Assembly: GCF_007989105.1 (NCBI RefSeq)
Contig: NZ_BJVK01000022.1
Location: forward strand, 1 to 36,280
Source of the DNA: Lentilactobacillus kefiri
GTDB lineage: Bacteria; Bacillota; Bacilli; Lactobacillales; Lactobacillaceae
Direction: 5' to 3'
DNA: 36,280 nucleotides
Shown here: one piece after another, positions 1,632 through 24,240 of the stretch
How the letters are laid out: the number at the start of each line of letters is the position of its first letter
How positions within the stretch are numbered: the stretch's first letter is position 1
The notes under the pieces: model-generated
Databases searched by the model: none
Seen by the model: the letters and a program-made list of their open reading frames with translations, nothing else
Told to the model about the DNA's origin: nothing
Made by a program: the position numbers and the translations under genes

Positions 1632-4600
1632 ATGAAAAAGAGCAGCAAACGTGGCTTACGGATTATCGCTAGTCTTTCGACAGTGATTCTGATGTCACCG
1701 CTGTTTGCTAATTCTTCAGTTCAGGTCATGCTTGGTAATGAGTTAAATGCTCACGCCGATGCACACGCGAAAACACCTGAGGGAGACAAATCAGTTCATA
1801 AAGCATTTACACCAAAACGTAAAAGCCAGCACGCGATTGATTCCTCCATTAAGTATTCTCACAAAGTGTCAGTGTTGAAAGTTTCTTTGAAACCAACGGC
1901 CACCAACTACTTTAAGAAAGGTGATCAGATTCACTTCAAATTTAGTAGCAGGAACGTTAACTTGAAGAATTTAAAAGCCAGTTATCAAAAATCGTTACCA
2001 TTCTCCTACAAACGGGTTAATGATCACGAACTGGTCTTAACTTTCAAGAAGTCATTAAATTCCGGGTTGTACGGACAAGCTTATGCGATCCCAACCAAGA
2101 ATAGAAAAATGACAACGAAGGTCAAAGGAACGTTTGATAACACCAAGCTAAATATTAAGAATGATGACATTCATTCTTATCAATTGGCTTCCAGGGCTCA
2201 CAAGGCTAGCTCCAATGCCGCAGCTTCGCAGAACACTGCAAACCAGCAGAATACTACGAATCAGCAAAGTACTGCGAACCAGCAAAGCACCGGTACCAAC
2301 AATGCAACGACTCAACAGCCACAAACAACATCGACTACGAGTCAAGCAACGAATAATACTGGTACCACAACCGGTACTCAACAGACTGCAGCAAGTCAGC
2401 AGACGCAACCGAGTTACACTACTAACAATAGGAAACAAAGTTCCGTCAGCCAGTCAGCAAACACTTCGTCGAATCAGAGCTACGTAAGTACACAAGGCAA
2501 AGCTGTTGCAAAATCTTCAACAGGAGGGAATACCTCAACCAAGGTTAATCAACCTCAAGCAAGTAAAGTTGATGCATCTACATCAACCACTCCTGCACAG
2601 ACTGCAGATACCACAAGTTCGTCTGATCAAACACAGGCTCAATCAACTTCTACAAGTTCCAATCAGACAACTTCTACTCAGGCATCTAACACAACAGCAA
2701 CTTCTTCTGCAGATACGAAAGCTGCTGCAACTGACCAATCGAACGTCACCACAAACAGTGATGGTTCCATTTCTCAATCACAACAGCAGAATGTTAATGC
2801 TTCAGATGCATACAACACCGCTTTGTCACGAACCACAATCAAACAGGGTTCATCCTCAAAGGGTTATGTTTCAACACCAGTTCCAGCTGCGAGTGATCCG
2901 GAGACAACATATAACAAATATGCCAGTCAACAGGACACCACAACAACTGGCCAGACATCTGAAACTGTTCAAAATGGTAGTACTGCATCATCTACTACAA
3001 CTACCACCAGCACCACGGGTTCAAATACTCAAAGTAGTCAAGCAGCGACTACACCAACAACTGCTCAAGCTAATTCCACTGGAACAGTGAACACAGCTGC
3101 TGGAAGTCAGAATACTTCGACTACAGATCCAAGTAAAACTACAACTGCGAATAGCAACAATTCTTCAGAGCAGAATTCCGAAGGTCAAGCTATTTATAAC
3201 GCAGTTAAGAAAAATGTTTCAGATCAAACATCCACTTGGGCATCTGTCAATGAACAGGGCGAAATCATCAAAGAGTATCCTTGGATTCTCAAAGATATCG
3301 CTTCAAAGATGGCAGCCAACCAAGACACTAAAGGTCAGGTTTGGAAGTATGCGGTTCCTATGACAACCGGTAAAACGGCATTAGTCACAATTGATGGGCG
3401 TTCGAGCACATCAAAAGCTGATAAGGGAACGTTGGCAGCTTCCATGCCGGAATTGTTGAAATCCCTTGGGAATTCTTCAAAGACCGGGATGTTTGATGAA
3501 GCAGTTGATGTCGATATTTTGAAGCAGTCAGATTATTATAAGAATCTACAAACTGAGCAGAACAATTTACAAAATGCTTCAGCCAAGGATGCTTATAACA
3601 CTGTCTTGGGTTCAACAAGATTTTCTCAAGACAATGGAACTTTGGATACTTCAAAGTATGTTACCGCTCCAACTCCTGACGCAAGTGATCCTCAAGCAAC
3701 TTACGCTAAGCTTGCTGCAGAACAACAGAACGGCAGCAGTCAAACATCAACGACGACTACTGAAAATTCAGACGGTACTGCGATTTATAACAATATCAAA
3801 TCACAAGTTGCCAACCAGACTAAGTCATGGGCTGACACTACCGAACAAGGCGAAATCGTCAAGGATTATCCTTGGATTTTAAATGATATCGCTAAGCGGA
3901 TGGCAGTTGCCGGTACAAATGACAATCAGGTTTGGAATTACAAGATTCCTTTGACGACTGGCGAGACCGCATTAGTTACGATCAATGGCAAAGCAGATAC
4001 AACAATGCCAAGTTCATTGACTGCCACGATGCCACAATTGCTTAAGTCATTGGGTTCATCAGCCACACCAGGAATGTTTAACGATGCAGTTGATTTTGAT
4101 ATTTTACAAAATTCACATTACTATAAAGGTCTGAAAATGCAGAGCCAGGCACAAGCAAATCCAAGTACCGGTTCAGAGTCAGGTAGCGGATTAGGTTCGA
4201 TTCTTGGAGGTTTCTTCAATCCACTTTCAATTATTTCAAACATTGTCGGTGCCTTTCTCACAGTGTCAACTATTGGTAGCTTAATTGCGGTTCCAGTAAT
4301 TGCGCACGTTGCCATTTCAGCAGTCAAATCAATTTCAAACATTGTCAAAGTTACCGGTGCAATTGTCGGTGTTGCCTTGAAGGCTATACCATTTATCGCG
4401 CCATTATTCATCATTCCAGCTATGATTACAATTGCCGGAATTATGTTTAATGCACCATTAATTATCGGCGGATTGCTTCTTGCTAAACCTGTAATTGATG
4501 CCGTTGCGACAATTGGAACAGTCATTACAATTGGAAATGTGATTGGAACAATCGGTACGCTCAGTACTCTTGGAACCATCGGCGGTGCAATCGCTCTTGG

Positions 4601-5489
4601 AACCATGGGAATGATCGGAACTGCAGTTGCTGTCGGTGCATTAGCTGCCACAGCACTTCCACTCATCTTCAAGACAATTACGAACATTGCCAGAAGCGTC
4701 GTTTCACTTGCCAACTTGGGAACCTTTATCGCTGGTTTCGTAATTGGTACGATCAGCGCGGTAACCACAACAATTTCCATTCTCGGTCATTTAGGTCTTG
4801 CTGTTCCGTTATTAGCTGTTACTTCAATTGCTAATCCAATTCTTTCAGTTATCTCAGCATTGGCCTTTGCAATTCTCACAGGAAACATTCTCAACCTCGG
4901 CACTGGTTTAGTAAATGTGCCACTCCTAGCTGGATTTGCAATTGGCGCATCACTTGTCACATTGATTGTGTCAATCTTAGGTCGTCAGTTGTTCAACTCA
5001 GCTATATCAGCAGTTAATCAATTCATTCAAGGTGCAAAGAACGTGATTCGAGCACTTGCATTGGGATCACTTATCCCGGCGTTCGTTTTGGCACCAGTAC
5101 TGATTAAAATTGCGATGGCTTTCTTAGCACTCATTCCACTTGCTGGTTGGGCTCTCAAGAAATTCCTCGATAATATTCGATCAGGTTTGAATGCATTGAA
5201 ACAATTCACCAATGTTATTTTCTTTGCTGTTCCATTAACAGCAATTGCTACGACAGTAGCTACAACAGTTACAAAAGCTATCAATAAAACTGGTAGCTTG
5301 GTTACCACAACCCTTGGTCCGCTGGCCATTCGCCTGGTAGTTGGTGCTTTAACTTTGGCCACCTTACCATTGACGATTGCATTCGGTGGATTACCATTCG
5401 TTATCATCAACATGGCTAACCGTCTGTTCCGCGACTTGGTTACGGGAACGGTTTGCTCCTATACTGAAATTTGGTACCAAAATCATTAG
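1632..5489 (+). CDS. Giant surface protein, 5' fragment before the IS
   Basis: This 1,285-residue frame has 1,274 native residues and 11 added from the left end of the IS (after ...LVTGTV) before a stop at 5487. ATG at 1632 is the only usable start, since an in-frame stop lies at 1617; the AGGAAAGGA ribosome site is unusually far away (17 bases). Signal peptide MKKSSKRGLRIIASLSTVIL..., likely cut after NAHA near residue 42. Then a domain at 55-185, low-complexity linker with two copies of a soluble module, and from residue 852 about 420 hydrophobic residues. If translated, the product would be exported but has no wall anchor, and its hydrophobic part might lodge in the membrane. Confidence 0.85.
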   Translation: MKKSSKRGLRIIASLSTVILMSPLFANSSVQVMLGNELNAHADAHAKTPEGDKSVHKAFTPKRKSQHAIDSSIKYSHKVSVLKVSLKPTATNYFKKGDQIHFKFSSRNVNLKNLKASYQKSLPFSYKRVNDHELVLTFKKSLNSGLYGQAYAIPTKNRKMTTKVKGTFDNTKLNIKNDDIHSYQLASRAHKASSNAAASQNTANQQNTTNQQSTANQQSTGTNNATTQQPQTTSTTSQATNNTGTTTGTQQTAASQQTQPSYTTNNRKQSSVSQSANTSSNQSYVSTQGKAVAKSSTGGNTSTKVNQPQASKVDASTSTTPAQTADTTSSSDQTQAQSTSTSSNQTTSTQASNTTATSSADTKAAATDQSNVTTNSDGSISQSQQQNVNASDAYNTALSRTTIKQGSSSKGYVSTPVPAASDPETTYNKYASQQDTTTTGQTSETVQNGSTASSTTTTTSTTGSNTQSSQAATTPTTAQANSTGTVNTAAGSQNTSTTDPSKTTTANSNNSSEQNSEGQAIYNAVKKNVSDQTSTWASVNEQGEIIKEYPWILKDIASKMAANQDTKGQVWKYAVPMTTGKTALVTIDGRSSTSKADKGTLAASMPELLKSLGNSSKTGMFDEAVDVDILKQSDYYKNLQTEQNNLQNASAKDAYNTVLGSTRFSQDNGTLDTSKYVTAPTPDASDPQATYAKLAAEQQNGSSQTSTTTTENSDGTAIYNNIKSQVANQTKSWADTTEQGEIVKDYPWILNDIAKRMAVAGTNDNQVWNYKIPLTTGETALVTINGKADTTMPSSLTATMPQLLKSLGSSATPGMFNDAVDFDILQNSHYYKGLKMQSQAQANPSTGSESGSGLGSILGGFFNPLSIISNIVGAFLTVSTIGSLIAVPVIAHVAISAVKSISNIVKVTGAIVGVALKAIPFIAPLFIIPAMITIAGIMFNAPLIIGGLLLAKPVIDAVATIGTVITIGNVIGTIGTLSTLGTIGGAIALGTMGMIGTAVAVGALAATALPLIFKTITNIARSVVSLANLGTFIAGFVIGTISAVTTTISILGHLGLAVPLLAVTSIANPILSVISALAFAILTGNILNLGTGLVNVPLLAGFAIGASLVTLIVSILGRQLFNSAISAVNQFIQGAKNVIRALALGSLIPAFVLAPVLIKIAMAFLALIPLAGWALKKFLDNIRSGLNALKQFTNVIFFAVPLTAIATTVATTVTKAINKTGSLVTTTLGPLAIRLVVGALTLATLPLTIAFGGLPFVIINMANRLFRDLVTGTVCSYTEIWYQNH
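2800..4134 (+). repeat. Duplicated soluble a-b module in the giant protein
   Basis: Two copies of a two-part module. Part a: DAYNTALSRTT...YVSTPVPAASDPETTYNKYA (from about 2800) and DAYNTVLGSTR...YVTAPTPDASDPQATYAKLA (from about 3590). Part b, about 125 residues: GQAIYNAVKKNV...DYYKNLQ (3178-3552) and GTAIYNNIKSQV...HYYKGLK (3772-4134). Part b carries a shared core EQGEI(I/V)K(E/D)YPWIL(K/N)DIA and MP(E/Q)LLKSLG...GMF..AVD.DIL. A Ser/Thr/Gln stretch separates a from b in both copies. No known family recognised. Confidence 0.75.
5451..5453 (+). repeat. Target-site duplication, left copy (GTT)
   Basis: GTT directly before the left inverted repeat, matched by GTT at 6634-6636 after the right one. 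Three bases is usual for IS3-family elements. It is also a Val codon of the interrupted gene in both flanking frames. Confidence 0.85.
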
Positions 5490-5531
5490 ATTTTGTGTCA
5501 TAATGATAAAAATCAGAATAGGAGTTTTTTT

Positions 5532-5795
5532 ATGAAATATTATTCAGATGAATTTAAAAACAACATCGTTAAGCTTTATCACAATGAAAATCGTTCAAAG
5601 AAATCCTTAGCCAATGAATATGGGGTTCATCCAACCACCATCAGTCATTGGATCAAGCGGGCCAAATTAGTTGAACTACCTGACGGTGGCGTAACGAGTG
5701 TTGAAGCCTTCAAGCAACTACAGAAAGAAAACCAGCAGTTAAAAGAAGAAAATGAAATTTTAAAAGCAGCGGCGGTGTTACTGGGAAGGCATTAG
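5532..5795 (+). CDS. IS3-family transposase subunit OrfA
   Basis: An 87-residue protein starting MKYYSDEFKNNIVKLY after the ribosome site AGGAG at 5520-5524. The first 50 residues form the helix-turn-helix of the HTH_Tnp_1 type (SKKSLANEYGVHPTTISHWI) that binds the IS ends. The last third (FKQLQKENQQLKEENEILKA) is a leucine-heptad coiled coil for multimerisation. In this family OrfA alone represses or modulates transposition, and the fused OrfAB made by frameshifting is the active enzyme. An upstream in-frame GTG-type start at 5493 lies inside the terminal region and lacks a ribosome site. Confidence 0.9.
   Translation: MKYYSDEFKNNIVKLYHNENRSKKSLANEYGVHPTTISHWIKRAKLVELPDGGVTSVEAFKQLQKENQQLKEENEILKAAAVLLGRH
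5759..5765 (+). other. Programmed -1 frameshift heptamer T TTA AAA
   Basis: In the OrfA frame the codons ATT TTA AAA give the canonical X XXY YYZ slip site T TTA AAA. Slipping back one base continues into the orfB frame (S-S-G-G-V-T-G-K-A-L-G...) with no stop, whereas orfB has no ATG/GTG start and no ribosome site before its conserved region. This fits the standard IS3-family expression mode. Confidence 0.7.
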
Positions 5796-6601
5796 GCAAA
5801 GTTAAAGCCATAGACTTTATCAACGAACAATTATGTAAACACCGCCTCTGGATAATCTTGAAAGCCTTAGGGCTTTCTAAAAGTACGTATTATCATTGGA
5901 AACACTATCAGATAAGTCGTCATGATAAACAAGATACGATTTTAAAAAGCCAGATCTTTGAAATTTGGAAAAATAATTATAAAGCCTATGGGTACCCTCG
6001 GATCACAATTGCCATGAGAAGACTTGGTGTAGTCATTGGCCCCAATCGTGTCTACCGATTAATGCAGGAGTTAGGCATTCGATCACTAATGGGGCGGCGT
6101 TTTAAGAAGCCAGGCACTCATGTAGATTATTCTCAACGGCCTAACTTGATTAAGAACCATCCAATTGGAACTATTTGGCGTGCTGACATAACCTACCTAG
6201 AACTAAGACCAGGCACTTGGGTTTATCTAAGTACCATCTTTGACCAAGCTAGTAAGCAAATCATCGCTTTCAACATTGGCAAGGAGATGGCATCGAAACT
6301 GATTATTAAGACATTGTTGCAAGCCTTGAGCAGGGCTTCTAAGCCAACCTTTTTGCACTCTGATATGGGTTCACAATACACCAGTATTGCTTATGAAGGC
6401 CTGTTAAAGCGGCACCTGATTAGGCATTCATATTCCAAACAAGGTTATCCATATGATAACGGTCCGCTCGAAGCTTTCCATTCGCTACTTAAACGAGAAT
6501 TTATTTTTCAAACACGTTTTACTAGTTTTGAGGACTTAGTCCTCAGAGTTGAAAATTACATTAACTGGTATAACACCGAAAGAATTAGGATAAACGGCTA
6601 A
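5766..6601 (+). CDS. IS3-family transposase catalytic part OrfB
   Basis: Read as the C-terminal part of an OrfAB fusion; the first start-like codon in this frame is TTG at 5858, so independent initiation is unlikely. The N-terminal part (LGLSKSTYYHW...YGYPRITIAMRR...RVYRLMQELGI) is the HTH_21-like region of IS3 OrfB. The integrase core has Asp in WRADITYLE, Asp in HSDMGSQYT, and Glu in GPLEAFHSLLKRE. Exactly 35 residues lie between the second Asp and Glu, with Lys seven residues further: the DD(35)E-K signature. The end NWYNTERIRING is typical, slightly short of the usual tail. No disruption is visible. Confidence 0.92.
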
Positions 6602-6633
6602 TTTTTTTAGTACCAAAACTTGACGTAGGAGCA

Positions 6634-9600
6634 GTTAAACTCGTTGCTAAAGTAAATTCTTTAGCCGCAAATGTTGTTACTAATATTGAAAGTCAAATTC
6701 AACAAGTCATCAAGACAGTTGTCAGTCCGGTTGTTGCCGGTGCTGCGCTCCTTAACGGATTGTTGTTTATAATACCAGCGATTACTGGTATTAAGATTTT
6801 GACATCTCCAATATTGGCAATATTGAGTTTACCGCTCACTATTCTTACAAATATCTTAGTACCAAGTATCGCAAATCTACTGTTACCCGCAATTGCATTG
6901 ATTGGTACCGCCATTACTTTGCCGCTTGTTTCCGGCTTGGTCGGCTTACCAATCATGATGCTGTTGGGTACAGGATTGCATAACATTGTTTCATCAATTT
7001 TGAATTTACCACTTCTTCTTTTGGGAAATGATTTAATCAGTTGGTTCCCAGCATTCTTAGCTGGTTCAATTGCTCAAATCACATCACTTTTGAAGAATGT
7101 GTTACCGCTTGTCTTTAGTGCATTGATCTCATTTGGTCTGCCACTTGTTTTGCTGCCATTGCAATTAATCGGTTCCACAGTATTGGGATTGATCTTGCCA
7201 TTTGGCTTGAAGTGGTTGGCACTCGCCCCGGTTGTTCTTCCAGCATTGATTGCTTTGGGATCACAACTTAAGTGGGTTTTGGATGCCGTTAAAGATGTGA
7301 TCGGTACCGTTATTAAATCTGTTTTGTCTGTCATTAATACTCATTTGCTTTTAGCTGCCATTACGATTATCCCAACGATCCTCAGCTCGATATTCAATAC
7401 ATTATTTGGATTCGGTCCGCTGAGCGTCATTGGTGATCTGATTAATACGTTGAACAAGATGTTTGTGAACAACTTTATGCTGCCACAATTTGTTGCGTTC
7501 GCAGTTAAGCTGATTGCTGGTGCGGTTTCAGGCATTCTTAAAGCAATTAACAATGGTATCTTTAATCTTATCTCGAACTTGTTGAAGGGCTTATTCCATT
7601 TGAAAGGCATCACTGGTTTGCTTGGCTTATTACTCGGAATTCCAGCCATGTTCTTCCAAGGTTTGCTCAACAATTTGATTCCTGACATGATCGCAACTTT
7701 AGCCGGACTATTGGTCTTGGCATTCAACTTATTGATTTCAACACCATTAATGTTCCTTCACGGTATTGGCTCAGCTCTTGGTCGCTTATTGTTGATCAAC
7801 TTATTGAACCCAATCCTTCAACTAGGAAACGATTTGATTAGCTGGCTGCCAGCACTTGCTGTTGGAACAATCTTGAACGTCATCAATTTATTTAACGGTT
7901 TGATTACCCAAGGACCAATCGGTTTATTCTTGTTCGGTTTGCCTTTGGTATTAAATGCCGGTTTGTTGCTTGCTAATTTGCTCGCAATTCCAACCTTCAT
8001 TTTGAATCTGATCGGAAACTTCTTCGGTCTCTCCAACTTAATGTCGTTAATCTTCCCATTGATTGCGGCCTTATTGTTGGGTGCCGGACTCAAATTGATG
8101 TCAGGTCTTACCACAATTTTGAACCTTATCGGATTACTCGGACAACTGGTTTTGAGTGGGTTAACCATGCCGCTTTGGTTGGTTATTCCAGGACTTAACC
8201 TGGTTCGCAAGCTGGCTTTCTGGACAACTCTTCTGTTAGGTTTGCCAAATGCATTGTTCAGCTTCATCGGTAATCTTGGTTCACAATTGCTCAAAGGAAT
8301 TTGGTCCGCTTTAACTTCATTACCATCAACTTTAATCAAAGCATTGTTCTCATTTGCCCGAAATGTCATTTCAACGATGATCAAAGATACGTTGTTGGCA
8401 CTTGGCGCATGGATCCTTGGTTTATTAGTTCTTGGCGGGTTAAAGCTCGCTGGCAATGTCATTAAGACTTTGCTTCAGTTAGCTAAATTCTTCTTAGTTA
8501 CTTTACCATTAACAATCGGCGGCTTGATTCTTTCAATCCTTGGATTGTTGGTTCTCAATGGCGCTATTGGACTAGGATTAATTCTTTTGTCCAACACATT
8601 GTTAAATGGTTTGGCTTTAATCGTTACCGCTGGCTTACTTGCTTTACCAGCATTGGCATCTCAATTTATTTCCAATGCCGTTAAAACATTTAGCCTGGCT
8701 GCCGTTTTGACTTTGAACTTGTTCCAAGGTCTCTTGAAAATTGGTAACCGATTGGTAATGGACTTTGTCCTCGGATTCTTGAACCTCTTGAATTTTGCGG
8801 TCAAAGCCGTCGCTGGATTGCCGACATTATTCGGTGCGCTCGCAACCATCGTAACTGCAATCCTTCCTGTCCCTGGTCACTTACTGCTTTCAAGCATCTT
8901 ACTTGCCTTAACAGTTGGTTCAGTACTTGCCAAGTTAGTTGCATTACCATTGGATCTTTTGACCAATGCGTTGAACTTGCTGAAGATCGGTCAATTGTTA
9001 TTAACAATTCCAGCCATCATCGCTAAGTTCATCGGTGCAGTTATCTTGAGTCAATTGATTGGTGGGCTGACAGGTCTCCTGTTGCTCCCAGTTGTATTGT
9101 TGAATCAATTGATTGGCGGCGTGATCGGATTGGCTCTCGCTGGTTTGAATGGTTTGATTAAATTAGCTTTGCCACTTGTACTTGGTGCACTTGGCTTAAC
9201 TCTTTCAATCGCTATTCCAACCGTTGTGCTTGGAATCCGTGTCTTGGGTGATTTGTTAAAGAACAACCCATTATTGGCATTGATTATCCTTGCATTACCA
9301 GGACTGATTCCAGGATTAAATCTGATTCTTGGTGCCGTCGGAATTGCTTCTGTATTCGGATTAGCCAAGAATGTCCTTAAATTATTACTTTCACCAATCA
9401 CAGGTATTTTGAACTTCATCAAGAACGGCCTGATTGCCTTATTAGCATTTGGTGCTTTAGCTGTTTTGGGTGCTGGTGCCGGCCTGTTGCTTGGTCTGCC
9501 ATTATTTGGCCTGCTTGCCCTTGGCATCAAAGGCTTATTGGATTTGGCACAATTGCCATTAAAGATCTTCAACGGCTTCATTGGTAACCTGATTCCAGCA

Positions 9601-12600: not shown

Positions 12601-15600
12601 CCTGGGATGGGATTGTTGGCATCACTTGGTTTGTTCAACGGAATCATTGGATTGGTTGGCTTAATTGCTCAATACGTGATTAACGTTATTCCTTCAATCC
12701 TTTCACTTGGTGCGATTGCCTTCTTGCTTGTCGGAATTGGCGCAATTGTCATTATCCTTCAAGAAGTCTTGAACATCGGTATCAACGTTCCATCGTACTT
12801 GAGTTACTGGGTTCTTTTACCGATGGCTGCAGTCTTAGGTGTCCTTTCGGTCATCTTGGTATTGCCATCGATGTTAGTAGGCGACTTGTTCGCAACGCTC
12901 CTTGGTTTACCATTTATTGTTGGTAACTTAGGGCTTGGCTTACTCGAGTCATTCCTTGCAAATCCAATTGCTGCAGTTCTTGCCGCATTGAACTTCGGAA
13001 TCCTCGGCATCGCCTCAATCCCAGCATTCTTCATTGGGACCTTCATGATTGCCCAAAGCTGGCTTTCATCAGTCTTCCCAATTGCTGAATTCTTGTATTA
13101 CCTTGTTATGAACAATCCAATTTGGGAGATGGCTAACTGGATTGGCTTGATTCCAATTATCGGTTGGATTGTCGCATTAATTGTGGATGTCTTATGGCTT
13201 GTCGTAGGCGCTTGGGGCACAGGAATTATGACTGTCTTGAACTACTCAGTTTGGGCATTGACAACCATTCCACTGGTATTTTCAATGATTACCGGCGTTT
13301 CCTTGTTGCTTTCCCTTGGAATATTAGGAATCGCAGCTGCACCAATTCTTCTTCTTGGTGGCGCAATTCTTCTCGGATTGTTAGCTGTCCCAAGCATTAT
13401 TAAGGCAGTTGTCAAAGCAATCTCAGGTCTCGTATATGGTATCGCTGCAAACACCATCTTCGTTTGGTTCTTGGGTCCACTCGCTTTGGACATCATGGTA
13501 AATCCAATTACTGATGCAATCGGCTTTATCATCATGCTTTATACCATGTTCTCACAACCTGTTTTATACATTGTATTCGCAGGGATCACAGTTCCGGTAA
13601 CCTTCTTATTATTTGCCGGAGCCTTCATGAACTGGTTAAATCCATTAAGATATCTGTATCAAGGAATTACATTCTTTGCGAAATTTGCATTACCAATCTT
13701 AGCTTTACTTGGTCTTGGTGCGATTGACGGTCTTCGTCTTTCAATGCTGGGTCTGAACTTATTCCCAGGTGTTGGTCTCATCGGCTTCATTGCATTGACC
13801 ATTGCTAAGTTGGGCTTAATTAACTTGATCGCACAATTTGTGATTAACGCAATTCCATCAATCCTTGCTTTGGCATTCATTGTCTTCATCGTTGTTGGTA
13901 TTGGCGCCATCGTCATTGTGCTTCAAGAAGTCTTAAATCTCGGAATTAATGTTCCATCATACTTGAGTTACTGGGTTCTCTTACCAATGGGAGCAATGCT
14001 TGGTGTTGGCATTACGCTGATTGCCTTGCCATTGATGCTTGTTGGTGATCTCCTTGCAACTTTGGTACAGTTGCCAATTATTGTTGGTAACTTGGGCTTG
14101 GGACTGATCAGTGGTTTGTTCGTCAATCCACTTGCTGCCGTCTTGGCAGCCTTCAACTTTGGTGTCATCGGGTTGGCATCATTACCAGCATTTATTGCCG
14201 GAGCCTTCATGCTTGATCAAAGTTGGCTTGGATCAGTCTTCCCAATCGAATTAGCGATTTACTACACAATTATGGAAAATCCAATTTGGGATATGGCCAA
14301 CTGGATTGGCTTGATTCCAATTATTGGTTGGATCGTTGCCTTAATTGTTGATGTGCTTTGGATGATCGTTGGTACTTGGGTACCAGGAATGTTTGCAACC
14401 TTGAACTACGCTATCTTCATCATGACGCAAGTTCCATTAACATTCTCAATGGTCATCGGCGCAGCAGAGTTCTTATCACTTGGGTTAGTTGGGATTCTCG
14501 GCTTACCAATCCTTCTCATGGGTGGAGCTGCATTGCTTGGTCTCCTCGCATTGCCAGCTGTTCTCTTGGGAATTGCTCGAACGGTGCTTGGTACCATTTA
14601 CGGTATCGGCGTCAACCTCATTTGGGCTTGGTTCTTAGGTCCGATCCTGCTTAACCTGGCAGTTAATCCAATTGCCGACTTCGAAGGATTCATTATCATG
14701 GTTTACACGATGTTTGTTCAACCTGTCTTGTACTGGGGATTAAGCGGCATCTTCATTCCTGCTACCTTATTCTTCTTCCAAGGTTCGTTCACAAACTGTC
14801 TGAATCCACTGAATAATCTCTTCCAGGGAATTACTAATTTTGCTTATCTTGCGCTTCCATTGCTTGCCGTCTTAGGACTGGGAACCATGGATCTGTTCAG
14901 ATTAGCAGTTAATGTGATTAGCTTGGTTCCTGGGGTCGGTTTGATTGCCGGTTTGGCATTATTTAATGCTAAATGGTTGTTAATTGGACTGATTGGTTTG
15001 TATGCTCTCAACGCACTTCCATCCGTCTTGGCATTGGCATTCATTGTCTTTATCATGGTTGGAATTGGTGCAATCGTCATTGTGCTTCAAGAAGTCTTGA
15101 ATCTCGGAATTAACGTTCCGTCAAGCTTAAGCTACTGGATCTTACTTCCACTGGGCGCATTTCTTGGAGTCGGAATTACCTTGATTACTTTGCCATTAAT
15201 GTTGGCAGGTGACTTGGTTGCGACATTGATTGCATTACCTGGAATCGTTGGAAGCTTAGGCTTAGCTTTGATCCTTGGATTTATTGCAAATCCATTGGCA
15301 GCCGTTATCGCTGCATTTAACTTTGCCGTATTGGGAGTCGCTTCAATTCCTGCCTTCCTTGCCGGAGTGTTCATGCTCGATCAAAGTTGGCTTGGATTCG
15401 TCTTCCCAATTGAATTATTTGCTTACTATCTGATTATGCAAAACCCACTTTGGTCAATGGCTCGTTGGATTGGCCTCATTCCAATAATCGGTTGGATTCT
15501 CGCCTTAATTGTCGATATTGTCTGGATGATTGTTGGAACTTGGGTACCGGGAATGTTTGCAACTTTGAACTACACCGTCTTTATCTTGACGCAAGTTCCA

Positions 15601-18600
15601 TTGGCATTCTCGACTGTGATTGGCTTATCAATGTTATTGTCACTTGGTTTACCAGGTTTGATTTTGATCCCAATTGCGATCTTGATTAACTTGTTGCCAG
15701 TTGGCTTGATAGCATTGCCAATCTTCTTACCAGCAATGTTGATTTCCGGTTTAGTAAATCCATTGCTTAATATACTCAAGAACGTTGCTTCATTCATTAC
15801 TGGCGGAGTCGTTGCATTAGCCGAAAAATTGTTTGGCAATAACTTCCTCAATAGCTTGTTCAGAATTGTTTTGAACGCCATTGTCTTAGCGCCTAAAGGA
15901 TTAATCGGTATGCTGCTGACATTGCCGGCATGGATCATGAAACAAGTTCTTAAGCTCAATGGTTTCCTCAATAAGGCATTAGCCGGATTGTGGTCATTGA
16001 TTTCAAATGTTATTACAGGATTGATTTTCTCAATTCCTGGCTCATTACTCAGTTCACTAGGTAATTTGTTCTTATCTCCAATCATCACCGGAATCATCAG
16101 CCTTGTTGGTCTTGGCATTCTTGGATTGTTAAATCTTTTGAACCCACTGACAAGCCTGATCATTCCACTAATTGGCGCCGGGTTGGTTGCTTTGGCACTC
16201 ACTGCTGGTCAGATTGCCAAGTTCATTGGCACCTTGATTAAGACAGTATTGAGTGGTCTCAACTTAATTCTTCCAGCATTAAATCTGTTAAGAAGAATCG
16301 GAGTTATCAAAGCTGCTTCTCAATTGTTAAAGAATGTCTTTGATGTCTTGAACGATCTCAATCCATTCAAACTGTTTGCGGACTTTGCTAAGAATGTTAT
16401 CTTACCAATGATCCTGTTCGCAACAGGCGCCTCAATTGTTCAAACGATTATTCGTCTTCTTGGTATGCCGCTGTTGAATTTGATTATTCCAGTGATCGCA
16501 GCCATCACAGGCGCAGTCATTTCAGTCTTGTTGAGTCCACTTGCTTTACTTGGATTGCCACTGATTGCCGGAATTGCTGCATTGATTCCGCTGGTATTGG
16601 CTCACATGAAGTCATTGGCTCAGGTTATCCCTGATTTGATTGGTCTAATCGGGCAGTCGTTATTAAACGGTGCGCTTGATTTGGCAAAATTATTACTCTT
16701 ACCGTTGGCAGTGTTCACATGGCCGCTTATCGGCTTGGTTGATTTGTTGAAGAACGTATTCAATGGTCAACATCCATTTGTTAACGTGTTTGAGAAGATG
16801 AACAATGTTTTGAAGGATCTCTTAGGTCCGCTCTCAGCATTATTCTTCGACGGCATGAATGGTCTTGCAAACATCTTAGGTGCAGGACTTTCATTCCTGA
16901 AGTTCGTCGGTTCATTGTTGTTGCCAATCTTCCCATTGAATTGGATCTTGGCATTGAACCAGGTTCCAAAGCTGTTAGCTTCATTGTTTAACGGCTTCAA
17001 AGGTCTTGGAAACATTGCCGGGGATCTCTTAAATGACTTAGGTCGTTTGGCTCTCGGTCTTGGGGCTGCCGTACTTGCATCATTGTTGATGCCATTGGCA
17101 CTCATTGGTTTAATCACCAAAGGGTTGACTGATTTGACACTTAACTTGTTCAAGAGTGGCATGTCACTGTTGTTCCAAGGACTCGCACAATTGTTTAAGA
17201 ATGGTATCAAGTTCCTGTTCTCACAAATTCCTGTCATGTTTAAGAATATCTTGGGTGGTTTAGGTAACCTGATTAAGTTGGGTGTGCTTGCCTTACCTGA
17301 TGTTTTGAACCCATTGCACGGACTTTTGATGGGAACCATGTTCCTTGGTGGATTGATTCCAGCAGTCGTTTCACTTCTCGGCTTGCCGTTTACCTTGTTC
17401 ATCAAGCCGGTTCTTGATCTCATTAATAACCATGTGGTTCCAATCGCTGCCTTCTTTGGTTTGAGCTTGCTCAATACCTTATTGAATCCAATTACTTCTA
17501 TCTTTGGATTCTTCAAGTCAGTCTTTGATACCATTAAGACTCAAAATAAATTGAACGGCATATTGAAAAATATTGCCAACTTCGTTAACACTGGTGTAAA
17601 GGGATTACAGATGTTGTGGCTGATTGGTCTTTCATTAGGCTCATTAGTATCGCACCTGATTACTGGAACAGTGGCTCTCTTGACTCACTTGATTACAAGT
17701 CACATCGGAAAGCTGTTGCTTAACTTAGCTGGATTACTATTCGTAGTAATCGGCAGTAATCCACTTAACGCCATTGGTTCGTTTGTTTCTAACGTAAAGA
17801 AGATGTGGAACGCAGGTCAGATAGTTCCAAAGGTCATTAAAGGCCTGATTCAGGGACTTATGAAGATCGGTTCAACCTTTACCTTCTTTATTCGCGGAAT
17901 CAAACACTTGGGTGATTTACTTACCGGCTTCGCTATCGTACCAGGAGCACTTGGTGTCCTTGGATTCTTACGACAAGTTAACCAGCAAGTTGTCGTTGCC
18001 CCTCTTCAATGGTTGAATCATAATATTGTGTTACCGCTGATAGCTAATGGTCTCACTGGCTTAGGCTTAGCACTTCTTGCACCACTGGCATTCTTACCTA
18101 CCTTGTTGTTGTCATTGCCTGGTAACAGGCTTGGCCGCTTGCTTCTCACATTGCCAATCGCACTTTTGGGCAACAGTCTTGTTCAATGGTTGCCGGCAAT
18201 CGCCCTTAACGGTTTGGGAAGCTTGTTCAATGGTGGTAAATCATTCCTGCAAAATCTCCTTAAGACATTTGCCTTATCAGGAATTGTTGGTTTGATTACC
18301 CGCGAATTAAGCAAGGCATTTGGTAAGTTAGTCACATTTGGCTTGTTGATTCCAAACATGATCTTTGGCAACAACCCATTTAGCACTATTCATTCACTGA
18401 TTAAGAACCTCGTGTTCCTCAAAGTGTTTGATACGGTTGTACCACTGATTGTCGCTGGTCTCTTACAGGCTGTCATGACAGTTAACTCATTTAAGAAGTT
18501 GCTTGGAAATGTCGTAACAGGCGTCAAGAGCTTCTTCAAGAATGGTTTGTTGTTCGCTGTCACTGCACCAATTTGGCTCATTTCAAATGGGTTAAATCAA

Positions 18601-20898
18601 CTTGGTAAAGGCATTTCCAACTTGTTTGGAAAGGTCGCCGGCTTCTTCTTGAAGCTTGGTTTATTACCACTTCGAGTTCTTTCATTCAATGGTGTTCCTG
18701 AGTTTATCGGCAATATAATTGCTGGATTGGGTAAGGCATTCACTTATCCACTTGCAATTCTTAACGTCCTTAACCTCACCATTCCTGGTTGGCTTTTGGG
18801 TCGATTGTTGACTCACTTGGTTGATCTTGGAAGTCTCGTAAAGATCGTTTCAGGATTTATTCCTGGAATTGGTTCAATGTTATTTGCACCAATTACCATC
18901 ATCTTTAATCTTGGTAAACAGATTCTGTCAGGCTTGTTCAACTTAGGTCTGAAAGGAATTCTCGATGGCCTCAACACAAACGCTGTCAACCTGGTTAACG
19001 CAATTGAGTTTGCTATTTCAACTGTCAATGATGCACTCACGAGTGGTCTGAAGCAGATGATCATGAACTTGATCGGCGTTATCACATTTGGAATCACGAT
19101 GGTTGGATTATCACTCTTAGGACGCTTAATCCCAACCGTTAAAGTTCCAGCATGGCTTGATAACCTGTTGAAGACAATTGGTCAAATCGCCAAAACTGTT
19201 CTTGTATTCAACATCGGCGTATTAGCCGGGTATTACCTGAATAAGAAGATCTTGGTTCCAATGATTAAGCTTTTGGGATTACCAGTTTTGCTGGCAGGGT
19301 TACTACCGTTTATCGGTATCGGATTGCTTAATAACGGATTGAAGAAGCTCGGAAATGTTTTGAAGGACTTCTTACTTCCATTGTTCGGTGGTCTGCTAGG
19401 ATCATTACCAGTATTACTTGGTCTATTGCCAATTATTGGATTAGGATTACTCAACAACGGCATCAAGCAGCTTGGAAATAACTTGAAGAGCTTCTTGCTT
19501 CCATTGTTCGGCAGCCTACTAGGATCATTACCAGTATTACTTGGTCTATTACCAATCATTGGATTAGGATTGCTCAACAACGGTATCAAGCAGCTCGGAA
19601 ATAACTTGATGAGTTTCTTGCTTCCATTGTTTGGCAGCCTACTTGGATCATTACCAGTATTACTTGGTTTATTACCAATCATCGGTATTGGATTGCTTAA
19701 TAACGGTATTAAGCAGCTTGGAAATAACTTGAAGAGCTTCTTGCTTCCATTGTTCGGCAGCCTACTAGGATCATTACCAGTATTACTTGGTCTATTACCA
19801 ATCATTGGATTGGGATTACTTAACAACGGTATCAAGCAGCTCGGAAATAACTTGATGAGTTTCTTGCTTCCATTGTTCGGTGGTCTGCTTGGATCCTTGC
19901 TTGGTCGCTTGTTGAATCAGAACAATAACAATAACTTTAACATCAATATTAACGTCAATGGTTTACCATTGTTGTTAGCATTGACACCTCTAATGAGTAC
20001 TTTAACCATTCTCGGAAATGCTGCAGCTGCCCCAATTAAATTGTTAACATCAATCTTGCCAGGATTGATTCAAACATTATTTGGCGGTAATAAGATTATT
20101 ATCTTACAAATCTTGATTCCAATTATCATTCCTTTGATAATTCCAATATTGTTGGTTGCACTTCTTCCGGTTGTTTTGCCAATCATCTTGGTCGCTTTAC
20201 TTCCGGTAATCCTACCAATCTTGATTCCGATTCTGCTAATAATGCCAGTCATTGTTCTTGGATTGCCAGTCCTTGTCGCATTGATTGCATTATTACCAGT
20301 CATCATTGGCATTCCATTAATCCTGCCACTCCTGTTACCGGTATTGATTCCAATCATCGGCGCAGCTGGCTTGATCAGATTCGTTACATCATCGTTTGGT
20401 GGTACCGTGAATACTCAAGTCACAAACAGTAAACCATCAGAACCCGCTGGAACATCAGGTCAACCTAATGTTTCTGTGAACGTTCCGGGCTTACCAAGTA
20501 CTTCTGGAAATTCAAATAACGAAGGAACCAGCCAGGTCCCTTCAACAGGTAATAATGTTGGAGGGAACCGCCAATTCCCTTCAACCACACCAAATCATAA
20601 TGGCAACGCACCCCGTGGCAATGTCACTAACGGAAACGGTCATAACACTGAAAGTTCCGTCAATAGTCAGTCGCAAGTTTCTGGAATAACGAACGGGATG
20701 ACGACGCCAAAGTCAACCGTCTCAGTTCCAGATTCAATGACTGATATGAATGGACTGAAGTCTCAAAAGGAATTGCCTCAAACAAATGAGAACCATGCCA
20801 ATCAACTATTGATCGCAGTATTAGGATTGATTCTAATGTTGCTTGATGTTCTTGGTTATGTATGGATTGCTCGACGTCGTAAGTTTTCAGTAGATTAG
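6634..20898 (+). CDS. Giant surface protein, 3' fragment after the IS
   Basis: Open from the right duplication (GTT 6634) to the stop at 20896; the first start-like codon is TTG at 6760 with no ribosome site, so this piece has no real start. It encodes about 4,750 residues: nearly 4,600 hydrophobic, then a hydrophilic spacer (about 20400-20770) and LPQTNENHAN, a 20-residue hydrophobic helix and RRRK. Recurrent motifs outside the regular repeats include LGNDLISWFPA (7024), LGNDLISWLPA (7819) and LGNSLVQWLPA (18169). Charged residues are mostly lone Lys or Arg. Without a signal peptide any product would stay inside or be degraded. The frame is otherwise intact over 14 kb, so the IS insertion is probably recent. 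Confidence 0.85.
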   Translation, partial: VKLVAKVNSLAANVVTNIESQIQQVIKTVVSPVVAGAALLNGLLFIIPAITGIKILTSPILAILSLPLTILTNILVPSIANLLLPAIALIGTAITLPLVSGLVGLPIMMLLGTGLHNIVSSILNLPLLLLGNDLISWFPAFLAGSIAQITSLLKNVLPLVFSALISFGLPLVLLPLQLIGSTVLGLILPFGLKWLALAPVVLPALIALGSQLKWVLDAVKDVIGTVIKSVLSVINTHLLLAAITIIPTILSSIFNTLFGFGPLSVIGDLINTLNKMFVNNFMLPQFVAFAVKLIAGAVSGILKAINNGIFNLISNLLKGLFHLKGITGLLGLLLGIPAMFFQGLLNNLIPDMIATLAGLLVLAFNLLISTPLMFLHGIGSALGRLLLINLLNPILQLGNDLISWLPALAVGTILNVINLFNGLITQGPIGLFLFGLPLVLNAGLLLANLLAIPTFILNLIGNFFGLSNLMSLIFPLIAALLLGAGLKLMSGLTTILNLIGLLGQLVLSGLTMPLWLVIPGLNLVRKLAFWTTLLLGLPNALFSFIGNLGSQLLKGIWSALTSLPSTLIKALFSFARNVISTMIKDTLLALGAWILGLLVLGGLKLAGNVIKTLLQLAKFFLVTLPLTIGGLILSILGLLVLNGAIGLGLILLSNTLLNGLALIVTAGLLALPALASQFISNAVKTFSLAAVLTLNLFQGLLKIGNRLVMDFVLGFLNLLNFAVKAVAGLPTLFGALATIVTAILPVPGHLLLSSILLALTVGSVLAKLVALPLDLLTNALNLLKIGQLLLTIPAIIAKFIGAVILSQLIGGLTGLLLLPVVLLNQLIGGVIGLALAGLNGLIKLALPLVLGALGLTLSIAIPTVVLGIRVLGDLLKNNPLLALIILALPGLIPGLNLILGAVGIASVFGLAKNVLKLLLSPITGILNFIKNGLIALLAFGALAVLGAGAGLLLGLPLFGLLALGIKGLLDLAQLPLKIFNGFIGNLIPALIAGSITGLIRLLTNGGLFGLLKLLVIIPVILNGLLTALIPILNGITVPLALIAALIELPLTLVEGLINNLNAGLLGLLGGQFVKGILNLINGVLNVLGPVLGILLGIMLPTLLIGLTANIIWIWFLAPIVLNLAVDPITDFVGFMIMLYTMFLQPALYIVFGIITIPVTLALFIGMFANWLNPLRFIFQTISDFGTWSLIWLGLGSFAAIELLKLSLLGLSLIPGSGLVAWLALTAAEIGLVALVAQFVLNTIPSIIYAWGIVILFVAIGAIVIFLQEFLNLGINVPSYLSYWILLPLATILGVAGVLMSLTLMLAFDTLALLTQLPLIIGNLSFGLLAAFVTNPISALLANVVFGVIGVASIVAFIAGAFMVGQTWLAAVFPFDLFIYYLIMENPIWELGQWAGLFPIIGWIAALVDDILWLAVGTWIPGIFAALNYSIFILTAVPLDFSAVIGVSLLLATGINGLLLLPVLLIGAAMTLGLIALPIVIRYGLQMLPDLLFGVGVNIVFTWFLGPLFLDLAVNPIADFVGFIIMLYTMFTQPILYYGFGIFLIPATILMFAGMFINWLNPLHYIFDGISTFAKFALPTLAVLGIGAIDLLRVSAGLISLIPGVGLISAFTLGLAKWALIGLVTAYVINTIPSILAGAAIVFLLVGIGAIVIVLQEVLNIGINVPSYLSYWVLLPMAVILAVTAILITLPLMLRDDFNVTLLALPFIVNNLGLGLMTGLIANPLAGIFTALTFGVLAAASIPAFLTGSFMIAESWLSSIFPLGLFAYYLIMQNPIWEMANWIGLFPIIGWIVALIVDVVWMIVGTWVPGMLALLNYAIFIATAIPATFSAIIGVSLGLSLGLVGLLGLPINLIGGAILLGALALPSIIGTVLSLAGGVFYGIAANIIFTWFLGPIALDLAVNPIADFIGYVIQLYTMFEQPLLYFVFGAISIPTTALFFIGMFTNWLNPLRILFQGLTDFAKFALPTILLLSIAAVVGLQISDLLISVVPGMGLLASLGLFNGIIGLVGLIAQYVINVIPSILSLGAIAFLLVGIGAIVIILQEVLNIGINVPSYLSYWVLLPMAAVLGVLSVILVLPSMLVGDLFATLLGLPFIVGNLGLGLLESFLANPIAAVLAALNFGILGIASIPAFFIGTFMIAQSWLSSVFPIAEFLYYLVMNNPIWEMANWIGLIPIIGWIVALIVDVLWLVVGAWGTGIMTVLNYSVWALTTIPLVFSMITGVSLLLSLGILGIAAAPILLLGGAILLGLLAVPSIIKAVVKAISGLVYGIAANTIFVWFLGPLALDIMVNPITDAIGFIIMLYTMFSQPVLYIVFAGITVPVTFLLFAGAFMNWLNPLRYLYQGITFFAKFALPILALLGLGAIDGLRLSMLGLNLFPGVGLIGFIALTIAKLGLINLIAQFVINAIPSILALAFIVFIVVGIGAIVIVLQEVLNLGINVPSYLSYWVLLPMGAMLGVGITLIALPLMLVGDLLATLVQLPIIVGNLGLGLISGLFVNPLAAVLAAFNFGVIGLASLPAFIAGAFMLDQSWLGSVFPIELAIYYTIMENPIWDMANWIGLIPIIGWIVALIVDVLWMIVGTWVPGMFATLNYAIFIMTQVPLTFSMVIGAAEFLSLGLVGILGLPILLMGGAALLGLLALPAVLLGIARTVLGTIYGIGVNLIWAWFLGPILLNLAVNPIADFEGFIIMVYTMFVQPVLYWGLSGIFIPATLFFFQGSFTNCLNPLNNLFQGITNFAYLALPLLAVLGLGTMDLFRLAVNVISLVPGVGLIAGLALFNAKWLLIGLIGLYALNALPSVLALAFIVFIMVGIGAIVIVLQEVLNLGINVPSSLSYWILLPLGAFLGVGITLITLPLMLAGDLVATLIALPGIVGSLGLALILGFIANPLAAVIAAFNFAVLGVASIPAFLAGVFMLDQSWLGFVFPIELFAYYLIMQNPLWSMARWIGLIPIIGWILALIVDIVWMIVGTWVPGMFATLNYTVFILTQVPLAFSTVIGLSMLLSLGLPGLILIPIAILINLLPVGLIALPIFLPAMLISGLVNPLLNILKNVASFITGGVVALAEKLFGNNFLNSLFRIVLNAIVLAPKGLIGMLLTLPAWIMKQVLKLNGFLNKALAGLWSLISNVITGLIFSIPGSLLSSLGNLFLSPIITGIISLVGLGILGLLNLLNPLTSLIIPLIGAGLVALALTAGQIAKFIGTLIKTVLSGLNLILPALNLLRRIGVIKAASQLLKNVFDVLNDLNPFKLFADFAKNVILPMILFATGASIVQTIIRLLGMPLLNLIIPVIAAITGAVISVLLSPLALLGLPLIAGIAALIPLVLAHMKSLAQVIPDLIGLIGQSLLNGALDLAKLLLLPLAVFTWPLIGLVDLLKNVFNGQHPFVNVFEKMNNVLKDLLGPLSALFFDGMNGLANILGAGLSFLKFVGSLLLPIFPLNWILALNQVPKLLASLFNGFKGLGNIAGDLLNDLGRLALGLGAAVLASLLMPLALIGLITKGLTDLTLNLFKSGMSLLFQGLAQLFKNGIKFLFSQIPVMFKNILGGLGNLIKLGVLALPDVLNPLHGLLMGTMFLGGLIPAVVSLLGLPFTLFIKPVLDLINNHVVPIAAFFGLSLLNTLLNPITSIFGFFKSVFDTIKTQNKLNGILKNIANFVNTGVKGLQMLWLIGLSLGSLVSHLITGTVALLTHLITSHIGKLLLNLAGLLFVVIGSNPLNAIGSFVSNVKKMWNAGQIVPKVIKGLIQGLMKIGSTFTFFIRGIKHLGDLLTGFAIVPGALGVLGFLRQVNQQVVVAPLQWLNHNIVLPLIANGLTGLGLALLAPLAFLPTLLLSLPGNRLGRLLLTLPIALLGNSLVQWLPAIALNGLGSLFNGGKSFLQNLLKTFALSGIVGLITRELSKAFGKLVTFGLLIPNMIFGNNPFSTIHSLIKNLVFLKVFDTVVPLIVAGLLQAVMTVNSFKKLLGNVVTGVKSFFKNGLLFAVTAPIWLISNGLNQLGKGISNLFGKVAGFFLKLGLLPLRVLSFNGVPEFIGNIIAGLGKAFTYPLAILNVLNLTIPGWLLGRLLTHLVDLGSLVKIVSGFIPGIGSMLFAPITIIFNLGKQILSGLFNLGLKGILDGLNTNAVNLVNAIEFAISTVNDALTSGLKQMIMNLIGVITFGITMVGLSLLGRLIPTVKVPAWLDNLLKTIGQIAKTVLVFNIGVLAGYYLNKKILVPMIKLLGLPVLLAGLLPFIGIGLLNNGLKKLGNVLKDFLLPLFGGLLGSLPVLLGLLPIIGLGLLNNGIKQLGNNLKSFLLPLFGSLLGSLPVLLGLLPIIGLGLLNNGIKQLGNNLMSFLLPLFGSLLGSLPVLLGLLPIIGIGLLNNGIKQLGNNLKSFLLPLFGSLLGSLPVLLGLLPIIGLGLLNNGIKQLGNNLMSFLLPLFGGLLGSLLGRLLNQNNNNNFNININVNGLPLLLALTPLMSTLTILGNAAAAPIKLLTSILPGLIQTLFGGNKIIILQILIPIIIPLIIPILLVALLPVVLPIILVALLPVILPILIPILLIMPVIVLGLPVLVALIALLPVIIGIPLILPLLLPVLIPIIGAAGLIRFVTSSFGGTVNTQVTNSKPSEPAGTSGQPNVSVNVPGLPSTSGNSNNEGTSQVPSTGNNVGGNRQFPSTTPNHNGNAPRGNVTNGNGHNTESSVNSQSQVSGITNGMTTPKSTVSVPDSMTDMNGLKSQKELPQTNENHANQLLIAVLGLILMLLDVLGYVWIARRRKFSVD
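9958..15777 (+). repeat. Five tandem 388-residue (1,164-bp) repeats
   Basis: Units start at 9958, 11122, 12286, 13450 and 14614, exactly 1,164 bp apart. Each opens with N(I/L/T)I..WFLGP and runs through landmarks (LAVNPIADF, LYTMF.QP.LY, NWLNPLR, LQEVLNLGINVPSYLSYW, SWL.SVFP, YYLIM.NPIWEMANWIGL, PIIGWIVALIVDVLWM, GTWVPGM, LNY.IF). The last about 15 residues of unit five diverge. Units differ throughout but show no length change, even though the nucleotides have drifted. Conserved acidic residues (NPIAD, LQE, VDV) stand alone in hydrophobic surroundings, and Trp/Tyr are conserved. In unit five one conserved Trp of NWLNPL is Cys (TGT). Confidence 0.93.
19279..19896 (+). repeat. Five tandem 41-residue repeats near the C terminus
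   Basis: Units start at 19279, 19405, 19528, 19651 and 19774; the first is 126 bp (one extra Ala), the rest 123 bp. The consensus starts LPVLLGLLPIIGLGLLNNG, then IKQLGNN and a (K/M)SFLLPLFGSLLGS end. Copies two to five are close to identical in DNA. Copies two and four have NNLKSF and three and five NNLMSF, so the array probably grew by duplicating a two-unit (246-bp) block. An Asn-rich stretch (NQNNNNNFNININVN) follows directly. Confidence 0.93.
20086..20375 (+). repeat. Ile/Leu/Val/Pro low-complexity block of giant protein
   Basis: About 95 residues built almost only from Ile, Leu, Val, Pro, Ala and Gly, with motifs such as LIPIIIPLIIPILL and VALLPV(V/I)LPI(I/L) recurring every 10-14 residues, just before the hydrophilic wall spacer. 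Prolines every five to seven residues make a simple transmembrane helix unlikely. Confidence 0.7.
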
Positions 20899-23949: not shown

Positions 23950-24240
23950 TAGAAACATTAGAATTTGCTAAGACAAGGAAAGTAGTCTCTTAGAACTTTT
24001 TCAGGGAGAATCGGGTAAGTGAGAACGATTCAAAAGCCTAAGTGATGAAAGTAACCTTCGAGCGACAAATGCGAGCGAGTCTGCGAGTGTTTGTTGGGAG
24101 CGCCCATTACAGCGCCAGTGTATCGCCAAAGCTTATTTGGCCGTACATGGCGAGTCGATAGTTGTGAGGCTGTCGAGAATTTGGGTGGTAACACGTGTAA
24201 ACGTCCCTTGAGATCGTCAAGATCTTGAGGGACGTTTTTT
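23950..24240 (+). promoter_or_regulatory. T-box riboswitch upstream of brnQ
   Basis: The leader carries an AAAGTAGT specifier-loop element (about 23980) near its 5' end, the T-box core GGGTGGTAACACG (24183-24195) and an intrinsic terminator. In T-box RNAs an uncharged tRNA pairs its anticodon with the specifier and its NCCA end with UGGN of the core, so read-through occurs when the amino acid is scarce. UGGU calls for a tRNA with discriminator A, as in Val, Ile and Leu tRNAs. A GTA (Val) in GATGAAAGTAACC on the 3' side of stem I is a possible specifier, but I cannot fold stem I with certainty. The downstream transporter makes a branched-chain amino acid the natural signal. Confidence 0.88.
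24199..24240 (+). terminator. T-box attenuator terminator
   Basis: Long stem AACGTCCCTTGAGATC / GATCTTGAGGGACGTT (two G-U pairs), loop GTCAA, then TTTTTT. It overlaps the region that would pair with the T-box core in the antiterminator. Confidence 0.88.

Follow-up and report, generated by a model that had tools for sequence, protein, structure and literature searches.

How can a polypeptide that begins with a signal peptide and ends in a sortase motif be hydrophobic over most of its length? The mature parts of proteins bearing an LPXTG motif are normally hydrophilic, yet a protein with about 4,900 hydrophobic residues between two such signals is encoded in Lentilactobacillus kefiri, in the stretch analysed here (bases 1-36280 of contig C22, 36,280 nucleotides, hereafter the window; the genome comprises 2.49 Mb in 118 contigs). 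Its gene, of about 18 kb, occupies positions 1632-20898 (+ strand) and is split by one IS3-family insertion sequence (IS). The best explanation appears to be that this giant represents a new exported protein family of giant size, whose members in our searches all come from Lactobacillaceae. We see about equal grounds for accepting and for doubting a more specific reading, in which it would be an exported, extracytoplasmic, hydrophobic helical coat protein, tethered by sortase in Lentilactobacillus; its localisation, wall linkage and function we infer from sequence.

Architecture, conservation and breakage of the giant gene

The insertion leaves a 5′ open frame at 1632-5489 (+; 1,285 amino acids, aa) and a 3′ open frame from 6589 to 20895 (+), which is listed from a TTG at 6760 and then comprises 4,712 aa. 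The two pieces of the 6,027-aa protein were analysed separately. Read in order, they encode a signal peptide, a head, a stalk rich in Ser, Thr, Asn and Gln, two small modules, the hydrophobic body, a hydrophilic spacer, the motif LPQTNE, a hydrophobic helix and RRRKFSVD, with LPQTN standing 40 residues before the end of the protein. The initial annotation had described a signal peptide, a hydrophobic body and an LPQTN-helix-RRRK end in one frame, and the frames, the composition and an uninterrupted orthologue all confirm that description. The parts of the gene are as follows.

1632-1769 (+): start codon and predicted signal peptide (MKKSSKRGLRIIASLSTVILMSPLFANS...AHA), read from the sequence; cleavage point approximate
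1788-2201 (+): N-terminal head domain, about 130 aa, beta-type, from comparison and from strands in a poor AlphaFold2 model
2202-3176 (+): Ser/Thr/Asn/Gln-rich stalk, from sequence; its length differs among species
3183-3551 (+): alpha/beta module, copy 1, from sequence; helix and hairpin elements in a poor model
3771-4127 (+): alpha/beta module, copy 2, from sequence; poor model
4197-5450 (+): hydrophobic body, first part, 5′ of the IS, from sequence
5452-6633 (about; +): IS3-family insertion sequence inside the giant gene, from Pfam domains, end sequences and flanking GTT
6637-9924 (+): hydrophobic body, pre-unit flank, evenly hydrophobic and amphipathic, from hydropathy tests starting at 6760
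9925-11088 (+): 388-aa unit 1, from unit alignment, profile and tree (as for units 2 to 5)
11089-12252 (+): 388-aa unit 2
12253-13416 (+): 388-aa unit 3
13417-14580 (+): 388-aa unit 4
14581-15744 (+): 388-aa unit 5, its last 40 or so residues divergent
15745-20379 (+): hydrophobic body, post-unit flank, with amphipathic helices and a partial likeness to tape-measure profiles, from hydropathy and profile search
19321-19880 (+): tandem 41-aa units (123 bp), from Tandem Repeats Finder (TRF) and motif count
20380-20772 (+): hydrophilic spacer, from sequence and hydropathy
20773-20898 (+): LPQTNE sorting signal, hydrophobic helix, RRRKFSVD and stop, from sequence; LPQTNE in 4/4 Lentilactobacillus homologues

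Relatives were found in ten genomes of three Lactobacillaceae genera: four Lentilactobacillus (the window; G013, L. parabuchneri DSM 5707; G015, L. parakefiri JCM 8573; and G022), five members of a further genus, g4 (G364, G385, G1115, G1122 and G1124), and one of another, g20 (G108). The repeat region was present in 4/24 genomes of the window's own genus, and relatives in 5/36 of g4 and 1/15 of g20; samples of the family, the order and the phylum gave 8/397, 3/395 and 1/398, the last being the window's own genome. These counts include that genome where it was searched, and they are incomplete, since the larger samples were drawn from larger groups. One of the eight family matches (G173; 70 aa, 21.6 bits, E 1e-4) we took for a chance match to a different membrane protein and discarded. 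No relatives were found in plasmids, viral contigs or phage records.

The search for an intact homologue succeeded in L. parabuchneri DSM 5707, whose orthologue is a single frame of 5,890 aa with both the signal peptide and an LPXTG-type end. A similar N-terminal start recurs in all nine genomes whose start was seen, and the signal peptide is predicted from reading and from this conservation. LPQTNE lies near the end in all four Lentilactobacillus members (the listed frame of G015 stops inside the helix); the L. plantarum sortase is described as recognising LPQTXE (PMC3619620). The head domain also occurs in separate hydrophilic exported proteins of other Lentilactobacillus, where 7/24 genomes gave a match to the head end only. 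In one of them, G004, the gene for such a protein adjoins the same divergent neighbour gene as the giant does (L087 4158-5825) and itself carries an in-frame stop.

Comparison of the window with L. parabuchneri gave a ratio of nonsynonymous to synonymous substitution rates (dN/dS) of 0.165 over 1,255 codons of the N piece and 0.159 over 4,543 codons of the C piece, both approximate because dS is near 1. Across nine full 500-codon blocks the ratio ranged from 0.096 to 0.278, with its minimum across the five-unit core, and three comparisons inside g4 gave 0.15-0.20. The giant gene is thus under purifying selection and well preserved.

The window's core comprises five tandem units, each of exactly 388 aa, which are 48-65% identical without insertions or deletions; the first unit of L. 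parakefiri has 387 aa. Profile searches counted five units in 9/9 genomes with a complete array (G385 and G1124 each have one unit split by a frame change, counted as one; G022, whose contigs end in the array, is excluded). In a FastTree tree of 45 units, whose support values were not read, the units group by lineage (Lentilactobacillus; G364/G1115/G1124; G385/G1122; G108). The exception is unit five of the G364 group, which is divergent and falls outside its lineage; among closely related species, units at the same position pair together. The grouping by lineage therefore points to concerted evolution or independent multiplication, yet the number stays five. The 41-aa unit in the post-unit flank is present in 4.6 copies by TRF, with five motif occurrences in the window; L. 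parabuchneri has a single occurrence, and a search of G015 and G022 found none. Its tandem copies are probably a recent expansion.

An inactivating lesion was detected in 7/10 homologues, at different places: the IS in the window, one in-frame stop each in G015 and G364, two in G1122, and a frame change each in G385, G1115 and G1124, where the longest homopolymers are 3-4 bases. All five g4 giants are thus broken, despite purifying selection. The only uninterrupted homologue is that of L. parabuchneri, those of G022 and G108 being open to their contig ends. The window's element has the ends TGCTCC...GGAGCA with GTT on each side and carries orfA/orfB with HTH_Tnp_1 and rve domains; one copy was found in this assembly, in which copies may be collapsed. 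Such frequent breakage is what a decaying or non-functional low-complexity gene, its frame open by an accident of base composition, would show. We give this account hardly any credence: as a long-term description it is refuted by the low dN/dS in every block and in g4, by the five units of nearly constant length in all complete arrays, and by the presence of one or two lesions per 18-kb gene, differently placed. Since the lesions are so few and dN/dS is low, the losses look recent, arising for example during cultivation; assembly errors are possible.

Hydropathy and topology of the body

The C piece is dominated by Leu (22.8%), Ile (11.5%) and Gly (10.7%), with 6.0% Asn, 5.5% Pro and 2.2% Asp plus Glu, and contains one Cys in 4,712 residues. 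Over 100-residue segments starting at residues 1 to 4401, its mean Kyte-Doolittle hydropathy is 0.78 to 2.13. The body as a whole keeps a mean of 1.1-1.9 across thousands of residues and lacks the hydrophilic mature region normal for LPXTG proteins. Values of this kind favour a polytopic protein that spans the membrane with more than 100 helices, its head and C terminus outside and its end tied by sortase, in which the units would assemble into a pseudo-symmetric channel, transporter or scaffold. Since insertion is predicted from composition alone, this is a serious rival to a coat, and one that we hold to be possible but doubtful.

In ordinary membrane proteins, hydrophobic helices are separated by hydrophilic loops. 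We therefore compared the spread of 19-residue mean hydropathy with that of 60 shuffles of the same residues, in 17 regions of the body drawn from six of the ten genomes (the window, G013, G364, G1115, G1122 and G108; borders set by ourselves) and in 29 control open reading frames (ORFs) of 250-700 aa with a mean hydropathy above 0.55, taken from the loci read, several of them mutually orthologous and most unnamed by any search. Hydropathy was more even than in the shuffles in 16/17 body regions (14 at z -1.9 to -7.6, two weakly at -0.6 and -1.2), whereas all 29 controls lay above zero (z +0.2 to +4.6). A run with 500 shuffles on the body regions and three controls pointed in the same direction. 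The helix/loop alternation of membrane proteins is missing from the body, which argues against the polytopic arrangement.

The body is not homogeneous: hydrophobic runs are longer in the five-unit core than in the flanks, and in Lentilactobacillus these flanks are strongly amphipathic. There, the power of the hydropathy signal at the helix angle, 100 degrees, is 2.3-2.8 times that of shuffles; the g20 flank gives 1.4, the units 1.2-1.6 and the controls 0.85-1.88. Only the Lentilactobacillus flanks exceed all controls. Runs of at least 15 residues free of polar or charged residues and Pro hold 0-13% of residues in the Lentilactobacillus and g4 flanks and 20% in the g20 flank, against 26-35% in three membrane proteins of the window. 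Autocorrelation of Pro and Asn in the flanks revealed no fixed spacing.

Charge and Cys content also speak against a polytopic protein. Lys plus Arg make up 2.0-5.7% of the giant pieces, compared with 4.1-8.2% of ordinary hydrophobic ORFs, and within the unit they concentrate at columns 71-140, with almost none in the other columns, which leaves little on which a positive-inside signal could rest. We counted 3 Cys in 50,574 residues (thirteen pieces, ten genomes) and 52 in the 11,236 residues of the control ORFs (0.46%; none in 7/29). Excluded from the giant count are 20-60 residues where some pieces begin, the 5′ piece each of G385, G1115 and G1124, pieces one and two of G1122, and the end of the window's 5′ piece that derives from the IS. 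Anaerobes tend to keep Cys out of exported proteins, according to PMC12453122. Because Cys is nearly excluded, the chain reads as outward-facing, a sign that most of it would lie outside the cell.

Structure prediction and unit conservation bear on both sides. AlphaFold2 modelled two units as all-helical, as a membrane protein would be, with low confidence (predicted local distance difference test, pLDDT, 56.9; predicted template modelling score, pTM, 0.37), and Foldseek of this model against the Protein Data Bank (PDB) returned nothing at E≤0.001 and 39 matches at E≤10. Across 22 aligned units from three genera, 19 columns are invariant; 15 of these are Pro, Gly, Asn or Trp, and Asp33 is the single invariant charged residue. 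Conservation along the unit has some helical periodicity (reached by 4/200 permutations). These conserved columns and their periodicity again favour the polytopic protein.

We nevertheless prefer the coat. Sec would export the N-terminal head and stalk first and the hydrophobic body would follow. The body would come to lie beyond the cytoplasm, at the membrane's outer face and within the wall, rather than stitched through the membrane. It would form a nearly loop-free string of very hydrophobic helices, with amphipathic flanks around the five homologous units. In Lentilactobacillus, LPQTNE would let sortase tie the C terminus to the wall; in g4, another conserved tail would take its place. The likeliest role would be that of a hydrophobic coat or adhesive, possibly lipid-binding. 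Support for this reading comes from the signal peptide and head, which hydrophilic exported proteins also have, from the even hydropathy, the amphipathic Lentilactobacillus flanks, the few long runs free of polar residues and Pro and the scarcity of Cys, and from an uninterrupted orthologue with both end signals and low dN/dS. A fuller version, in which some 4,900 hydrophobic residues would cross Sec untrapped owing to the spacing of polar residues and Pro and fold as a loop-free coat, with the five units, each with one invariant Asp, kept as a pseudo-fivefold assembly, strikes us as unlikely.

Several observations weigh against the coat. The post-unit flank of the window is not more even than its shuffles (z +0.5), and the amphipathicity of the g4 flanks (1.6-1.8) falls inside the control range. 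In the units, 14-32% of residues lie in the long hydrophobic runs defined above, and these units carry conserved Trp, Asn, Pro and Asp, as a folded membrane protein could have. With estimated insertion energies (dG) and dG<1 as the insertion threshold, composition alone gives about 100 insertable segments in the 3′ piece and 10 in the 5′ piece. The density is 1.9-3.0 per 100 aa in the window's 3′ piece, G013, G108 and G364, compared with 1.7-2.6 in three ordinary membrane proteins. Relative to shuffles, insertable segments are fewer mainly in the flanks of Lentilactobacillus, above all the pre-unit ones (11 vs 16.8 and 12 vs 19.7 at dG<0), and more numerous in some other regions, as in the post-unit flank of G1115 (56 vs 44.7 at dG<1); in most controls they also lie above shuffles. 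Avoidance of membrane insertion is thus not general, and many of these segments should, on expectation, pass from Sec into the membrane. Finally, no LPxT[GNAS] occurs in the last 200 aa of any of the five g4 members, which end instead in a common tail (...IPSVGFWVHNDPLVL). The sortase signal is therefore a lineage trait. The end of the g20 member, which runs off its contig, is not in the assembly.

The initial annotation had offered both topologies, and each survives in part. Its wall-anchored coat, with a spacing that avoids membrane helices, gains from polar residues and Pro being spaced more evenly than in shuffles, which holds for none of the 29 control ORFs, from the scarcity of Cys and from the recurrence of export and anchor signals; it loses in that insertable segments are not generally below shuffles. 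Its giant multi-pass protein retains as many insertable segments as the composition gives and lacks the helix/loop alternation. Homologues without the two end signals had been named as evidence against its interpretation as a whole, and here the g4 proteins are divided: the signal peptide and head are kept in four (the assembly of the fifth, G385, does not hold the 5′ end), and the LPXTG motif is absent from all.

The giant makes it possible to test how hydrophobic a long polypeptide may be and still pass Sec, and what spacing of polar residues and Pro lets a chain escape the membrane. Should it prove to be a membrane protein, its helices would outnumber those of any that we know of. In either case, a large conserved family in lactobacilli of food environments stands without a name or function, and a type strain offers an uninterrupted copy. 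That the units always number five, and that separate strains have repeatedly suffered inactivation of the gene, can likewise be tested.

Leader RNA and neighbouring genes

Two conserved features precede the giant gene.

272-973 (-): divergent neighbour, a predicted exported 233-aa protein without a Pfam family, noted for its position beside the giant
1215-1525 (+): structured leader RNA with serial GGCACC/GGCAGCC hairpins, 5′ of the giant gene, from fold and comparison

The gene for the 233-aa protein adjoins the giant in 4/4 Lentilactobacillus members, and a 44%-identical gene lies beside the g20 giant; it is also found in Lentilactobacillus genomes without a giant. Its conserved position suggests, and does not prove, that it is a partner of the giant. 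The leader RNA precedes the giant in the same four genomes, with a fold z of -3.65 and 42 invariant columns in its best block of 50. Of its 97 predicted pairs in the 4 species, 9 have a change on both sides in some sequence, and an Rfam search of the leader returned no family.

Pfam named a TetR-like protein, a PAP2 protein, a branched-chain amino acid transporter, a Na/H exchanger, a DUF5776 protein and a histidine phosphatase among the window's other genes. The protein with the PAP2 phosphatase domain (22134-23900) has a signal-like start, and by eye each of the four Lentilactobacillus loci has a similar ORF downstream of its giant. A T-box leader (Rfam RF00230, 97.8 bits) at 23961-24211 stands ahead of the transporter gene (24369-25760). 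The protein at 28837-30306 carries DUF5776, which is the C-terminal domain of the Apilactobacillus giants. In G108, a second, shorter relative is encoded upstream of the g20 giant (L059 13210 to L058 2944); its first part aligns with residues 1-188 of the window protein (44% identity) and a later part with residues 689-1280 (29%), a span that takes in some of the hydrophobic body.

Relation to known proteins

The initial annotation knew of no described family like this one, and our searches agree. Pfam found no family at E≤1 on either piece, DUF5776 included; NCBIfam and PADLOC scans of both pieces found none; and searches of PDB sequences with unit and head profiles returned nothing at E≤10. 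Below the NCBIfam cut-offs, EF0750_LPXTG matched the LPXTG end at 18.4 bits (cut-off 47) and a pullulanase family matched the same end. AlphaFold2 models of the head (pLDDT 33.6) and of the small modules were poor. Weak Pfam hits for the head were scattered (17 families over 12 members, one or two members each) and were not used. Our literature searches turned up no description of such a protein, the nearest being the giants of Apilactobacillus kunkeei.

Phage tape-measure proteins, which contain long hydrophobic helical stretches, had been raised as a match that would speak against a new family. In this respect the C-terminal flank does resemble such profiles, and the 388-aa units do not. The flank, or the whole body, might descend from tape-measure proteins and now act as an exported membrane-active rod or channel, which we consider highly improbable. 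The profile phrog_1272 matches L. parabuchneri at 79.5 bits (E 2.5e-22) over 1,533 aa, G015 at 44.7 bits and the window at 21.8 bits; two more tape-measure profiles match the L. parabuchneri stretch, and the reversed window stretch yields no tape-measure hit at E≤1. However, a 593-aa stretch of L. parabuchneri searched alone scores 36.3 bits forward and still 23 bits reversed, and the profile is unspecific, matching the giant in 3/10 genomes and also 10/14 control genomes, archaea included (some may hold real prophages). In addition, a PHROG search with one g4 post-unit flank and with units of G1122 and G108 gave no match at E≤1, and tblastn of the 593-aa stretch against 50,697 phage records gave nothing at E≤0.01 with the low-complexity filter on. 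No phage tail genes were seen beside the giant, by Pfam for the window's neighbours and by eye at the other loci. We regard the likeness as a shared helical pattern rather than as evidence of homology.

The giant is thus like tape-measure proteins in the profile similarity of its C-terminal flank in three of ten genomes, and unlike them in its lack of phage context, in its signal peptide and sorting signal, and in that part of the L. parabuchneri similarity survives reversal. Piezo is a large multi-pass membrane protein of thousands of residues with many hydrophobic segments; unlike such proteins, the giant lacks helix/loop alternation, has almost no Cys and would need over 100 helices. With lactobacillar surface proteins of the LPXTG (LPQTxE) type it shares the signal peptide, head, low-complexity stalk and LPQTNE-helix-basic tail, and it differs in the roughly 4,900 hydrophobic residues of its mature part and in having g4 homologues without the motif. 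The extracellular A. kunkeei proteins Giant1-5 (PMC12863079) are described as having DUF5776/SH3b-like ends and no predicted transmembrane regions and as rich in Asn, Ala or Ser; Giant1-4 have an N-terminal beta-solenoid. Compared with these, the L. kefiri giant is without DUF5776 by Pfam and has a hydrophobic body; like them, it would be a Lactobacillaceae surface protein in the size range of 3,000-8,000 aa that begins with a signal peptide and contains long repeats.

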